Origin: Arcobacter suis CECT 7833
GTDB lineage: Bacteria; Campylobacterota; Campylobacteria; Campylobacterales; Arcobacteraceae
Reading direction: 5' to 3'
Assembly: GCF_003544815.1 (NCBI RefSeq)
Contig: NZ_CP032100.1
Coordinates: forward strand, 186,001-250,000
Length of the DNA stretch: 64,000 nt
Both the position numbers and the translations under genes were made by a program. Positions 8,539 to 17,998 of the stretch are shown here, piece by piece; the first letter of the stretch is position 1, and each line of letters begins with the position of its first letter. Below the pieces are notes generated by a model, which saw nothing but the letters and a program-made list of their open reading frames with translations, had not been told where the DNA came from and made no database searches.

Positions 8539-9117
8539 ATGAAAACTCCTTTTGAAATTACTTGTGTAATTTTAAGTGGAGGCAAAAGTTCTCGAATGGG
8601 AGAAGATAAATCTCTTCTTCCCTTTTCAACTTCTAAAACTTTAATTCAATATCAATACGATAGATTAAAACCTTATTTTAAAAATATTTATATATCTTCG
8701 AAAGTAGATAAATTCGATTTCTTAGAAAAAAACTTCCTAATTTTAGATGAAAATAAAGATATCTTTTCACCAATATTAGCCTTAGATACAATATTTAAAA
8801 AATTTGAAAATCAAAAAATATTTATAATAACTGTAGATACACCACTTGTATCAATTGATTCTATATCTAAATTAATTGATGCTTCAATAAATTATGATAT
8901 TTGTATTGCACAAACAGAAAAAACACATAATTTATGTGGAGTTTTTTCTTCTAATATAAGTTTAACTATTAAAACTATGATTGAAAATGATATACACAAA
9001 ATTGCTTACTTAATAAATAAAAATAAAAATAAAATATTAAAGTTCCCTAATAATAGTGAGTTTCTAAATATTAATAATAAAGAAGAGTATGAGGAAAGTT
9101 TAAATTATATAATTTAG
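8539..9117 (+). CDS. mobA: Molybdenum cofactor guanylyltransferase
   Basis: Transfers GMP from GTP to molybdopterin to make the guanine-dinucleotide form used by DMSO-reductase-family enzymes such as nitrate and formate enzymes. It has 192 residues with the nucleotidyltransferase signature LSGGKSSRMGEDKSLL at the N-terminus and a metal-site TVDTPLVS near residue 115. It starts one base after the leuC stop, so it is very likely co-transcribed although the pathways are unrelated. The nucleotide-binding loop is intact. Confidence 0.92.
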   Translation: MKTPFEITCVILSGGKSSRMGEDKSLLPFSTSKTLIQYQYDRLKPYFKNIYISSKVDKFDFLEKNFLILDENKDIFSPILALDTIFKKFENQKIFIITVDTPLVSIDSISKLIDASINYDICIAQTEKTHNLCGVFSSNISLTIKTMIENDIHKIAYLINKNKNKILKFPNNSEFLNINNKEEYEESLNYII

Positions 9118-9219: not shown

Positions 9220-10689
9220 ATGATAAAGAATGAACTAGATAAGGCGCTAGAGCTAGTTGATTGCGAAATTAAAAAAGCTGGAATTTCAAGAAGAGAAGCT
9301 TTTAGATTAGCAGGACTTGGATCAGCTGCTTATTTAATGGGTGGCGGATCTGATGCAAATGCAGCAACAGAATTAAAAGCAAGTGATGCAACAGGAAAAA
9401 TATTAATTATTGGTGGAGGATTAGCTGGTATTTCTACTGCTGCAAGATTAGTTAATACTTTATCAAATCCTGATATTACAATAGTTGAACCAAATCCAAA
9501 ATCAGTATCTTATCAACCAGGAAGTACTTTAGTTGCAGCTGGAATTTATACAAAAGAAGATATTGATTATAATACAAAAGATTTTTTACCAAGTGGAGTT
9601 ACACTTTTAAAAGATAAAGCAATTGATTTTAATCCTGAAGCAAATAAAGTTGCCTTAGAATCAGGAGAAACTTTAAGTTATGATTTTTTAATTATTGCAG
9701 CAGGAATTGCATTAGATTTTGGTGCAATTAAAGGCTTAGAAGAGATTGGAGATGCATACACTGTTGGAGATGCATCTAAAATATTAAAAGTTTTTGGAAA
9801 TTCAGGAATAACATCTGTTTATAACATTGATTCATCAATTGCAATGTGGGAACAAACACAAAAATTCATTCAAAAAGCAAAAGATGGACAAAAAGTAAAA
9901 GGTATATTTACAGATCCTAATACTGCAATTAAATGTGGAGGAGCCCCTAAAAAAGTTATGTATCTTACAAATGCTAGATTAAATGAAGCAAATGCCAGAG
10001 CAAATGCCGAATTGACATTTTATACAGATTCTGGAAAATTATTTGGTGTAAAAGAATATGCCGATGCAATAGAAAAACAATTTATTGCAAGAGATATGAA
10101 ATGGAATTTCAATCATAATTTAACAAGTGTAGATATTGCTAAAAAAACAGCTACATTTGACAAACATTGGCAAGAAAAAGGTGCCTATGATAAAGATTTA
10201 GAAGAGTATGAAACAATTACTAAACATGAAAACATTGAAGTTCCTTTTGATTTATTACATATTACACCTCCTCAAAAAGCTCCTGATGAAATTGGAAAAT
10301 CAGCTATTGGTTCAACAAAAGGTTGGGTTCCTGTTGATAAAGAAACTTTGCAACATGTTAAATATAAAAATATTTTTTCTTTAGGTGATATTGCAGCTGT
10401 TCCTATGGGGAAAACAGGTGGAACAGTAAGAAAACAATATAAAGTTTTAGTTGATAATTTAGTTGCCGTTATGGAAGGAAAAGAGTCAACAGCTAAATTT
10501 GAAGGATATACAGTTTGTCCATTAATTACTGATATTGGAAAAGTTATGTTAGCTGAATTTAACTGGACTGCAAAACCAACTCCATCTTTTCCACTTGATC
10601 CTACACAAGAAAGATATATTTGGTGGTTACTAAAAGTTTATTTACTTAAACCTATGACACAGTATGGAATGTTAAGCGGTAAAGCTTAA
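9220..10689 (+). CDS. sqr: Sulfide:quinone oxidoreductase, type II, with Tat-like leader
   Basis: FAD enzyme that oxidises sulfide and passes electrons to the quinone pool. It has 489 residues. The N-terminus has SRREAFRLAG followed by a hydrophobic stretch ending in ANA, a Tat-type export signal, so it probably acts on the periplasmic face. FAD-binding motif: ILIIGGGLAG (near 65). Family motifs of the type II (mitochondrial-like) SQR are clear: YQPGSTLVAAG, the catalytic-cysteine motif IKCGGAPKKVMYL (near 245), and the second catalytic cysteine in GYTVCPLI followed by LAEFNW near the C-terminus. The tail RYIWWLLKVYLLKP is the amphipathic membrane anchor. It leads an operon with a small membrane protein and a triple-rhodanese protein, supporting a sulfide-to-sulfane-sulfur pathway. 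Confidence 0.88.
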   Translation: MIKNELDKALELVDCEIKKAGISRREAFRLAGLGSAAYLMGGGSDANAATELKASDATGKILIIGGGLAGISTAARLVNTLSNPDITIVEPNPKSVSYQPGSTLVAAGIYTKEDIDYNTKDFLPSGVTLLKDKAIDFNPEANKVALESGETLSYDFLIIAAGIALDFGAIKGLEEIGDAYTVGDASKILKVFGNSGITSVYNIDSSIAMWEQTQKFIQKAKDGQKVKGIFTDPNTAIKCGGAPKKVMYLTNARLNEANARANAELTFYTDSGKLFGVKEYADAIEKQFIARDMKWNFNHNLTSVDIAKKTATFDKHWQEKGAYDKDLEEYETITKHENIEVPFDLLHITPPQKAPDEIGKSAIGSTKGWVPVDKETLQHVKYKNIFSLGDIAAVPMGKTGGTVRKQYKVLVDNLVAVMEGKESTAKFEGYTVCPLITDIGKVMLAEFNWTAKPTPSFPLDPTQERYIWWLLKVYLLKPMTQYGMLSGKA

Positions 10690-10698
10690 GAGATCTAA

Positions 10699-10923
10699 AT
10701 GAAAAAAGAGTTATTAATTATTGTAAGTATATTGATTATTTTGACAATTGCTATGCATTACAAAGAGTTATTAACTCATCCAATTGAACATATATTTGAT
10801 TTACCAAAATCAGGAGCCTATGGTTTAGGAGGATTACATCCTCTTATTTTTACATTTGTTATTTATATACTAATTTTAATACCAAGATTTTTAATTAAAT
10901 TATTTAAAAGGAATTCAAAATGA
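10699..10923 (+). CDS. Small two-segment membrane protein of the sqr operon
   Basis: A 74-residue protein not recognised by family. Residues 4-20 (LLIIVSILIILTI) and about 50-66 (FTFVIYILILIPRFLI) are membrane segments; the loop between contains HPIEHIFDLPKSGAYGLGGLHP, and the tail is basic. It lies nine bases after sqr and its TGA overlaps the rhodanese ATG. The position suggests an anchoring or assembly role for SQR or the rhodanese, but no function is shown by sequence. Confidence 0.7.
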   Translation: MKKELLIIVSILIILTIAMHYKELLTHPIEHIFDLPKSGAYGLGGLHPLIFTFVIYILILIPRFLIKLFKRNSK

Positions 10924-12113
10924 ATAAGAGATTTAAGAGTTTAATCGTATCAAGTTTTCTTTTAATAGGAATAGGAAGTTTTTCGGCAGAAGTAGAAAAT
11001 CTTTCTGCGCCAACAGAAGCTGTTTTGGAATTAGTTAAAAAATATCAATTGGAACAAGTGGATTTTGATTATGTAAAAAAAGCCATAAATCAAGGTAATA
11101 AAAATGGTGTAAATGCAATTTTAATAGATGCTAGACCAGAAATAAAATATCAAAAAGGAACGATTCCTTCAAGTTTAAATATTCCAGATACAAAATTTGA
11201 TGAATACTATTCTGTATTAAAAGATATTCCAATGGACAAAGAACTTATAGTTTATTGTGGAGGATACAATTGTACAAAAAGCCCAATTGTTGCACAAAAA
11301 CTAAAAGATAAAGGTCATACAACTGTAAAAGTTTATTCAGGAGGAGAACCTGAATGGGCTAAATTGAGTTATCTTGAGATTGATACATCCGCTATAAAAA
11401 TATATCAAGAAAAGAATTCTGCATTTATTGTTGATGCAAGACCTTATGTAAAATTTTTACAAGAAACTATTCCTGGAGCAATTTCAATTCCAGATACAAG
11501 TTTAACTAAATTAATTGGAAGATTCCCAATTGATAAAAATGAGAAAATAGTTGTTTTTTGTGGAGGATATACTTGTGAAAAGTCACATATAATTGCTAAT
11601 AAATTAATATCTTTAGATTATAAAGATGTTATGGTTTATGCAGGTGGACTTCCTGCTTGGAAAGAAAGAGGTTTAAGTACTACGGCATCTGCAATTGATG
11701 AAAAAGTTAATGAAGTAACTCCAAAAAAAGAGCAATTTAGTAAAAATGGTTTAAAACTTGGAAATGATGAAGGAAGTGTTGATGGTGAGTGGCTAAAAAA
11801 ACAGATATTAGAAAATAAACTACCTTCATATATTCAAATAGTTGATGTTACTTCACCAAATGAGTTTAAAAATGGTCATATTAAAGGTGCTATTAATATT
11901 GAGGCAGCAAAATTAACTGCAAAAGAGTTATTTGAAAAGTTACCAAAAAATAAAACTATTGTATTTAATTGTACTGCAGGTGGAAGATCTATTGATGCTT
12001 GGTCTAAATTGAATGATGCAAAATTAGATATTAGTGAAATTTATTATTTTGACGCAAATATTTCTTGCAAAGATAATAATTGTAAAATTGATGTAAATGA
12101 ACCTTTATTATAA
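10920..12113 (+). CDS. Exported protein with three rhodanese domains
   Basis: Sulfur-transferase protein of 397 residues with a signal peptide (about 1-22, ending FSA). Three rhodanese-like domains follow one another: about 35-145 with active-site segment VYCGGYNCTKS, about 150-255 with VFCGGYTCEKS, and about 275-395 with FNCTAGGRS. Each keeps a cysteine at the active-loop position. The first two share the loop CGGYxCxKS, an uncommon sequence with two cysteines; the third is the usual CxxGxRS type. It is translationally coupled to the small membrane protein and downstream of sqr, so it is likely to handle the sulfane sulfur or polysulfide made by SQR in the periplasm. The exact acceptor is unknown. 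Confidence 0.88.
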   Translation: MNKRFKSLIVSSFLLIGIGSFSAEVENLSAPTEAVLELVKKYQLEQVDFDYVKKAINQGNKNGVNAILIDARPEIKYQKGTIPSSLNIPDTKFDEYYSVLKDIPMDKELIVYCGGYNCTKSPIVAQKLKDKGHTTVKVYSGGEPEWAKLSYLEIDTSAIKIYQEKNSAFIVDARPYVKFLQETIPGAISIPDTSLTKLIGRFPIDKNEKIVVFCGGYTCEKSHIIANKLISLDYKDVMVYAGGLPAWKERGLSTTASAIDEKVNEVTPKKEQFSKNGLKLGNDEGSVDGEWLKKQILENKLPSYIQIVDVTSPNEFKNGHIKGAINIEAAKLTAKELFEKLPKNKTIVFNCTAGGRSIDAWSKLNDAKLDISEIYYFDANISCKDNNCKIDVNEPLL

Positions 12114-12130: not shown

Positions 12131-12168
12131 AAAAAAAGGGTTAGAAGTAAAACTTCTAACCCTTTTTT
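12131..12168. terminator. Bidirectional terminator between the sqr operon and rplT
   Basis: GGGTTAGAAGT, an AAA loop and ACTTCTAACCC form an 11-bp stem with A7 on one side and T6 on the other. It serves the plus-strand sulfur operon and the minus-strand rplT, which converge here. Confidence 0.9.
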
Positions 12169-15969: not shown

Positions 15970-17574
15970 TTAGAATTTATATCTCATATATGCTCTAATA
16001 TCTTGAGCTTCTTCTACTGGATTTTGACCTGCACTTTGAGCTTCAGCCATTGTCATAGGTGTACCATCTGCTCCAAAAAATGAATTTGAACCTGTATAAT
16101 CATAAGACATATATACATAACTAAGACCAAAACTTAAAGCATCAGTTAATTTTTGAGTTCTGTAAACTTCCCAAGCTTGACCTCTCGTTGCTATTTTGCT
16201 TCCAGCGTATGTATCTTCACCATAAGTCATAGGACGCCAGTATTTGCTTCCTTTATTCCATTCTAATCCAATTTTCGCACTATCTGGTAAAATAGGACAA
16301 GGTGCATTTACTCCTAACCAAACTGAAGTTCCTGTTTCAGAATCAGTTGAACCTAACATTCCTAAAGAATTTGGATTTGTTTTACTAGCCGCAAATGAAG
16401 CAAAAGCAATAGAATTATCTAAATAATCTGAAATACCATTTCCTATTCCTTCTGTTTTAAATAAAATTGTTGCAAAATCTATATCCCCAACATCTTTAAA
16501 TGATGGAGTCATTGTTTGCAAAGTATATGCATTATTCATATCAGGATTTTGTTTATAATTTTTATATGCACCATCAAAATTTTGTAAAGATTGCCTATCA
16601 AATCCAATTAAATTCCAAGCTTTTGCATAATTCATATGAACTGAATATTGTCCATTATCATAAGGAACAGCAATAAATCCTAACATATCAACATCAATAT
16701 TCTTTTCATCATCTGTTGAATATGCACCATTTGTATTGGCAGTAGCCATATCAAATCTAGGAGTTGCATTTGTTAAACCTCTTCCTCCACAGATTTTAAG
16801 CCAAGAACCTGTAAATCCTGTAACATTTTCCGTATCAAATTTTATTGAGAATCCATCAAATTCAACATCAACAGTGTGCGATAATGGAGAGTTCGCTGCT
16901 TGGTCATTTCTTATATTGATTGGTAATCCATCTGTTGAAGGTCGTCTTCCCACTGATGCTGACCAAGGAATATCTGTACCAAATAATCTCTCTTTTGTAT
17001 ATAACCAATAAGCTTCTTTTAGTTTGATTGTATTATCTGTAGCATTTTCATTTGTAACCCAATCAAAGTTTGCATAACCTGGATTTGTATTTGATTGAGA
17101 GTGATCTGCTGTATCTCCAAATGCTTTGTTATAAGATAATTTACCAAAAAACGATGAATTATCATCAGCTTTATATTTCGCACCTAACCATAATCTATTT
17201 GTTAAAAGTGCATTATTTTCAGACTTTGATCCATCAGCATGTTTATATTGAATATTATCAACTTGTGTTCGGAAATCTACATCCCATTTTAGATTATCTT
17301 GAGCACTTTGAACTTTTGCAGCTGTTGCTGTTTTAGAAACATTATCAAGTTTTTTTTCTATTTTTTCTATTCTTTTTTCATCTATAGCTGTAACTGTTGG
17401 TTGTTCAACTTTTTGTGTTTGTACAGTTTCTTGTGCAGCAACTTTTTTTTCTAAAGCTTCAATTTGAGCTTTTAATGCTTGAATTTGTTTAAACATTTCT
17501 GTATTAACATCACTAGAAAATGATGTTGTAGCAAATGCAGCAACACAAGATAATACGATTAAATTCTTTTTCAT
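15970..17574 (-). CDS. DUF3373-type outer-membrane porin-like protein
   Basis: Exported beta-barrel protein of 534 residues. It has a signal peptide (about 1-21, ending SFS), a coiled coil (about 28-95) rich in Lys, Glu and Gln that probably spans the periplasm, then a long barrel region with alternating aromatic strands (DVDFRTQVDNIQ, WLGAKYKAD, SWLKICGGRGL) and a C-terminal YMRYKF ending in phenylalanine, as outer-membrane proteins do. This layout is that of DUF3373 proteins, common in Campylobacterota; the substrate is unknown. It lies alone with terminators on both sides of the block. Confidence 0.85.
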   Translation of the reverse strand: MKKNLIVLSCVAAFATTSFSSDVNTEMFKQIQALKAQIEALEKKVAAQETVQTQKVEQPTVTAIDEKRIEKIEKKLDNVSKTATAAKVQSAQDNLKWDVDFRTQVDNIQYKHADGSKSENNALLTNRLWLGAKYKADDNSSFFGKLSYNKAFGDTADHSQSNTNPGYANFDWVTNENATDNTIKLKEAYWLYTKERLFGTDIPWSASVGRRPSTDGLPINIRNDQAANSPLSHTVDVEFDGFSIKFDTENVTGFTGSWLKICGGRGLTNATPRFDMATANTNGAYSTDDEKNIDVDMLGFIAVPYDNGQYSVHMNYAKAWNLIGFDRQSLQNFDGAYKNYKQNPDMNNAYTLQTMTPSFKDVGDIDFATILFKTEGIGNGISDYLDNSIAFASFAASKTNPNSLGMLGSTDSETGTSVWLGVNAPCPILPDSAKIGLEWNKGSKYWRPMTYGEDTYAGSKIATRGQAWEVYRTQKLTDALSFGLSYVYMSYDYTGSNSFFGADGTPMTMAEAQSAGQNPVEEAQDIRAYMRYKF

Positions 17575-17677: not shown

Positions 17678-17998
17678 CTAACAAGCTGGAACATTTCCAG
17701 AATCATTTGCAAATTCAATTGTAAAATCAATAATGTTTTCTTGTACAGATTGACTTAAATCACCAGCTTTTACATTTGGACAAATTTTGATAACTTCTTG
17801 CTCGAATTTACCGCTATCTTTGATCTCTTTCCACTCATCTTGTGTATGTTTAGCTGCAAATTTTGCACCTGTCATATCACAAGGACCTTTTAGTAATTTA
17901 CTAAATAATTTTTGACCTTTTACAGCATCAGCAGATAAAGATGTTGATGCAATTCCTAAAGCTAATGTTCCTGCCATGATAATTTTTAATAATTTCAT
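17678..17998 (-). CDS. Exported cytochrome-c-like protein without a heme motif
   Basis: Periplasmic protein of 106 residues with a signal peptide (about 1-23, ending LSA). The mature part starts DAVKGQKLFSKLLKG and ends ANDSGNVPAC. It matches a Campylobacterota family often labelled cytochrome c because of the AVKGQKLF-like start and the HTQDEWKEI helix. There is no CXXCH, so it should not bind heme covalently. Three cysteines (in GPCDM, IKICP and the last residue) could form a disulfide or metal site. Function unknown. It is monocistronic, with a terminator after it. Confidence 0.75.
   Translation of the reverse strand: MKLLKIIMAGTLALGIASTSLSADAVKGQKLFSKLLKGPCDMTGAKFAAKHTQDEWKEIKDSGKFEQEVIKICPNVKAGDLSQSVQENIIDFTIEFANDSGNVPAC

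Follow-up and report, generated by a model that had tools for sequence, protein, structure and literature searches.

A small membrane protein family linked to the probably exported type II sulfide:quinone oxidoreductase of Campylobacterota

A three-gene unit and its surroundings

The window is the whole stretch of DNA analysed here, 64,000 nucleotides from Arcobacter suis CECT 7833. The source genome (2.64 Mb, Arcobacteraceae) has its nearest named loci in Arcobacter and Aliarcobacter, with 93-90% identity in sulfide:quinone oxidoreductase (SQR). Three genes of the window are packed head to tail: sqr, an open reading frame of 74 residues, and a gene for a protein with three rhodanese domains. 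A strong terminator stands at the end of the pack.

9220-10689, plus strand: sqr, encoding a type II (human-type) sulfide:quinone oxidoreductase of 489 residues (phmmer match to human SQR 6oi5 in the PDB, E 7e-76)
10687-10689, plus strand: stop codon of sqr, followed by nine bases before the ATG of the 74-residue frame at 10699
10699-10923, plus strand: 74-residue, two-helix inner-membrane protein of a nameless SQR-linked family (64-member alignment, AF2 model)
10921-10923, plus strand: stop codon of the 74-residue frame, in a four-base overlap with the rhodanese ATG at 10920
10920-12113, plus strand: exported triple-rhodanese protein of 397 residues with an N-terminal signal-like helix (three stretches of Pfam PF00581)
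12132-12168, plus strand: intrinsic terminator of the unit, a 17-bp stem with a T tail (-28.1 kcal/mol, z -6.2)

An earlier account made from the letters alone, which we call the sequence-only reading, had described a nine-base gap followed by an overlap among these genes; the coordinates and spacing are exact. Clear Shine-Dalgarno-like AAAGGA sequences precede sqr and the rhodanese gene, and a convergent ribosomal-protein gene lies beyond the terminator. We claim no promoter for the unit because sigma-70 predictions fall below the shuffle expectation (14 found, 20.9 expected). An Rfam search returned no element. The same reading asked that the three genes be treated together, and this is supported. 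They are a real, coherent unit, and most likely one operon for periplasmic sulfide oxidation. A MobA-like gene upstream of sqr (8539-9117) is kept beside it in many Arcobacteraceae loci, which is probably plain synteny.

Two further genes of the window bear on the unit.

15970-17574, minus strand: DUF3373 outer-membrane pore-type protein (Pfam PF11853, 438 bits)
17678-17998, minus strand: exported KGQ...C protein of 106 residues, partner of the DUF3373 gene by shared neighbourhood conservation, with no Pfam family

DUF3373 is listed as an outer-membrane pore-forming family (PMC4827864). The pair lies 4-6 kb off here and directly beside sqr, the 74-residue gene or the rhodanese gene in nine other loci (L107, L108, L122, L181, L184, L192, L197-L199), and the DUF3373 gene probably belongs, at a distance, to the functional cluster of the unit. 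SoxY is encoded elsewhere in the source genome, as is an FccAB-like pair of flavocytochrome c proteins that bears a Tat-type leader (L200:7622-9221). By its sequence this pair is a second candidate periplasmic sulfide oxidase. No NrfD-type gene (Psr/NrfD) was found in the source genome.

The oxidoreductase with its Tat leader and the triple rhodanese

9220-9393, plus strand: Tat leader of the SQR, SRREAFRLAGLGSAAYLMGG...ANAAT, with R24 and R25 invariant in 12 divergent SQRs
9934-9936, plus strand: redox Cys239 (KCGGAPKK), invariant, aligning with human KCAGAPQK
10516-10518, plus strand: redox Cys433 (YTVCPL), invariant, aligning with human YTSCPL

The SQR matches Pfam Pyr_redox_2 above the cut-off. 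A match is present in 55 of 60 relatives. Against the PDB, phmmer gives 259 bits for human SQR, 62 for FCSD, 60 for the Aquifex-type SQR (3hyv) and 38 for the 3szw-type SQR. Judged by sequence comparison, the window enzyme is human-type (type II) and nearer to human SQR than to the other SQR types. The claim of a type II SQR with both catalytic cysteine motifs is borne out by the alignment of C239 and C433 with the human redox pair, and the FAD-binding GxGxxG at the N-terminus (IIGGGLAG) is aligned in all compared sequences. Human SQOR (PDB 6oi5/6mo6) and the window enzyme are alike in fold, FAD motif, both redox cysteines and a conserved C-terminal segment, but the window enzyme has in addition a Tat leader some 55 residues long and an insertion, EKGxYDxDLEEY. 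The compared Campylobacterota SQRs share the insertion, and those from other phyla in the comparison lack it; it is a possible contact surface.

The leader, ISRREAFRLAGLG, has the SRREAFRL motif, a hydrophobic stretch and an AxA-like site (ANAAT). The two arginines, both redox cysteines and the C-terminal segment, a membrane segment that is the SQR's own, are kept in 12 divergent Campylobacterota homologues. The twin-arginine motif occurs in 121 of 124 Campylobacterota type II SQRs, the other 3 being cut by the locus end, and was found in none of 5 type II SQRs of other phyla. The Tat-type leader proposed for the SQR holds, and it is already published. Han and Perner (2015, PMC4584964) report a Tat motif on all listed type II SQRs of Campylobacterota, the same group with the same leader as the window enzyme, so the periplasmic placement is a known prediction. 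The consulted passages of that review do not mention the linked small protein or the rhodanese.

11256-11282, plus strand: loop of rhodanese domain 1, CGGYNCTKS (C113, C118); both Cys, the Lys and the Ser invariant in 20 relatives
11559-11585, plus strand: loop of rhodanese domain 2, CGGYTCEKS (C214, C219); both Cys, the Lys and the Ser invariant in 20 relatives
11970-11990, plus strand: loop of rhodanese domain 3, CTAGGRS, of the canonical six-residue form with Arg as its last residue; C351 and R356 the same in all 20 relatives

Three rhodanese domains had been read in the third gene, and three are present. The protein scores 161.5 bits against PF00581 (gathering score 22.2), and its AF2 model (pLDDT 87) has three rhodanese folds. 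The six-residue Cys...Arg/Thr/Ser loop is found in domain 3 (CTAGGR); the loops of domains 1 and 2, which are mutually 43% identical, are longer, C-x4-C-x-K-S. The pattern C-x-G-[YFW]-x-C-x-K-S recurs in domains 1 and 2 of nearly all relatives, and seven cysteines are invariant in the 20 relatives, among them a C-terminal pair, C383 and C388. The protein is a conserved variant. Multi-domain PF00581 rhodaneses (PDB 6mxv, 1yt8) also have three rhodanese domains, but the window protein differs from them in its predicted export, in having loops in domains 1 and 2 that exceed the usual six residues by two, and in its C383/C388 pair. The two-cysteine loop singled out by the sequence-only reading is there and is conserved, but it is less unusual than was stated: BH2092 (PDB 3o3w/3nhv), a single-domain rhodanese unlike the three-domain protein of the window, has a two-cysteine loop, CWGPAC, that aligns with domain 1.

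In yeast RDL2 the last residue of the loop, an Arg, is required for thiosulfate cleavage (PMC8533005). Only domain 3 (CTAGGRS) has this Arg, and the analogy suggests a division of labour in which domains 1 and 2, with two cysteines each and no loop Arg, would suit a persulfide or polysulfide relay and domain 3 may handle thiosulfate.

A 74-residue membrane protein linked to sqr

10756-10758, plus strand: codon of invariant His20 at the outer end of helix 1 (64 of 64 members)
10837-10839, plus strand: codon of invariant His47, in an HP motif at the start of helix 2 (64 of 64 members)

The AF2 model of the 74-residue protein is a confident hairpin (pLDDT 93.1) with helices at 2-26, 28-34 (short) and 44-71. 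H20, P28, H47 and P48 are unchanged across the 64 aligned members, and E4, L15, Y56 and R63 are more than 90% conserved. Since positive charges sit at both ends, the positive-inside rule would make the loop between the two membrane helices probably periplasmic. A chance open reading frame is ruled out; this is a real gene because 64 divergent homologues share invariant residues and comparison with five near relatives gives a dN/dS of 0.23-0.51. The corresponding values for sqr are 0.09-0.12, so among the near relatives of the window the small gene evolves faster.

No recognised family had been seen for this protein, and none emerged from our scan of the family members, which passed no Pfam or NCBIfam cut-off. 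Neither a profile search nor Foldseek found a relative with a solved structure. We considered DUF3975 (PF13126), which is of like length and aligns weakly over the full length with a few members, and rejected it: the window protein scores 15.3 bits and the best of the members scanned 24.7, and the cut-off is 25. The protein is a member of a coherent SQR-linked family without a Pfam or NCBIfam name, and the family is new here.

A profile search of 397 Campylobacterota genomes gave 114 matches at threshold. We left out five that were very weak or partial, with in-frame stops, so the family is counted in 109 of the 397. Type II SQR (at least 456 bits) is present in 104 of these 109 genomes (95%), compared with 128 of 397 overall; the Fisher p of 7e-65 overstates independence and is not independent evidence because the genomes are related. 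In six genomes of other phyla the family was not found, a weak negative with no positive control there.

The linkage is physical as well. A distance of 10 kb or less separates 78 of the 111 copies from sqr, and 63 are no more than 300 bp away: 45 follow sqr on its own strand, 16 are divergent from it and 2 are upstream. The sqr-adjacent copies span about eight families. The varied orders and strands argue against one inherited block. A gene-neighbourhood search had been suggested as the check on the link, which would have suffered had the small gene been absent beside sqr elsewhere; it is adjacent to sqr across the Campylobacterota, and the link is not refuted. Several loci (L075, L081, L084, L191 and also L091) have a second, divergent sqr right after the small gene, in the order sqr-small-sqr2-rhodanese.

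The association also has exceptions. In L070 sqr and the rhodanese gene overlap directly and the 74-residue gene is cleanly missing; seven SQR-positive genomes of the same genus are without it, and 37 of 74 named loci have sqr without it nearby (many of these contigs are short). Conversely, five genomes (G186, G235, G236, G315, G346) have the small gene without type II SQR, and in L182 and L195 it is distant from sulfur genes. In L105, L175 and L155 it stands directly after a PsrC/NrfD-like gene. The L155 member (L155:1495-1731), in a genome without detected type II SQR and outside the 64-member set, has Tyr in place of His47. L188-L190 hold a longer cluster: sqr, an unknown gene, cytochrome c, the 74-residue gene, cytochrome b561, a Tat molybdoenzyme, FeS, NrfD-like and triple rhodanese.

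These losses bear on the idea that the small protein is an anchor. It is indeed a linked membrane protein, but it is not a required anchor, because the SQR keeps its own membrane segment and because L070 and the seven genomes of the same genus do without the gene. An auxiliary role fits better. The sequence-only reading stands in part: the type II SQR, the Tat leader and the unit hold, and the anchor is weaker.

A proposed periplasmic route and its rivals

We give somewhat better than even credence to a periplasmic route from sulfide to sulfane sulfur in which the 74-residue protein is the inner-membrane partner of an outward-facing SQR. Going by its sequence, the SQR would fold with FAD in the cytoplasm and be exported by Tat to the outer face of the inner membrane. 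There C239 and C433 would oxidise sulfide and pass electrons to (mena)quinone while the sulfane sulfur stays on cysteine, as is established for the SQR family. The sulfur would then depart as polysulfide or persulfide, and the exported triple rhodanese would accept it; the proposed hand-over from SQR to the rhodanese domains in the periplasm is consistent with the sequences. The least sure step concerns the small protein. Its invariant His and Pro residues would lie at the outer membrane surface, and it could keep SQR in position or shape the way quinone enters it, as an auxiliary and not an indispensable part. This partner role is suggested by linkage, conservation and a confident fold model.

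The model is supported by the human-type SQR having both cysteines, by the near-universal Tat leader of Campylobacterota SQRs, by the co-occurrence and linkage of the small gene with sqr, by its other contexts being sulfur and quinone operons (L105, L175, L155, L188-L190), by the invariant residues and hairpin model, and by the invariant rhodanese cysteines. It is weakened because the small gene can be missing beside a kept sqr and rhodanese gene and kept without SQR elsewhere, because it evolves faster than sqr, because SQR has its own membrane segment, and because type II SQRs may act mainly in detoxification or in reverse. A stronger version, in which the protein is a dedicated membrane subunit that gives the outer-face SQR access to the quinone pool and the two invariant His form a quinone or heme site, we think unlikely. 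SQRs otherwise bind the membrane unaided, and we know of no such subunit for them.

It could instead be argued that the protein is a general membrane helper that serves the periplasmic quinone-linked sulfur enzymes of Campylobacterota, of both SQR and PsrC/NrfD type, by binding quinone or heme or by assisting assembly. The three genes that follow a PsrC/NrfD-like gene, one of them in a genome without type II SQR, agree with this, as do the cytochrome c, cytochrome b561 and psr-like neighbours in L188-L190 and the placement of the two invariant His on the same membrane face. However, SQR neighbours far outnumber the others, the source genome is without any NrfD-type gene yet keeps the protein, and the change of His47 to Tyr in L155, a single case, fits relaxed constraint where SQR is missing. 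We regard such a helper as improbable, and we put still less weight on the gene being a passenger that encodes some unrelated conserved membrane protein and stays near sqr through conserved gene order. Carriers without SQR, SQR without the gene, and long synteny blocks (pyrG-recJ-sqr-small and mobA-sqr-small-rho-rplT, where order is conserved anyway) are what a passenger would leave, but linkage that recurs downstream, divergently and upstream is not expected from inheriting one block, and nearly all carriers have SQR.

A different objection accepts the unit and questions its purpose. Its main task may be to detoxify sulfide or thiosulfate and to handle sulfur, or it may run in the reducing direction (polysulfide to sulfide), with a Sud-like rhodanese, energy being gained through Sox and flavocytochrome c. 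In this reading the role of the rhodanese would be like that of Sud of Wolinella, a polysulfide sulfurtransferase that delivers polysulfide sulfur. That likeness also leans on citations in PMC7952632. The source genome has SoxY and the FccAB-like pair, type II SQRs are described as low-affinity by Han and Perner (PMC4584964), and the sqr genes reported as up-regulated in Sulfurovum under sulfur reduction are of types IV and VI and not of type II (PMC10045233). Against this, the source genome has no Psr/NrfD to use delivered polysulfide, and we doubt that this is the main work of the unit. The periplasmic oxidation route with a partner protein is the reading we prefer.

Type II SQRs of Campylobacterota occur widely in vent, sediment and sewage habitats. 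To our knowledge, no functional explanation of their Tat export has followed in the decade since it was noted. The SQR type and its export signal were already known; what is new is the SQR-linked family, and it is the part worth following. Nothing pertinent came out of a literature search for a small membrane protein accompanying SQR. We believe the 74-residue protein is a good candidate for an overlooked partner of SQR, and its gene is a concrete and easily deleted handle on the meeting of an exported SQR with quinone and on the fate of its sulfur. The conserved rhodanese and the DUF3373 pore-type neighbours suggest that a route from the inner to the outer membrane may be traceable.
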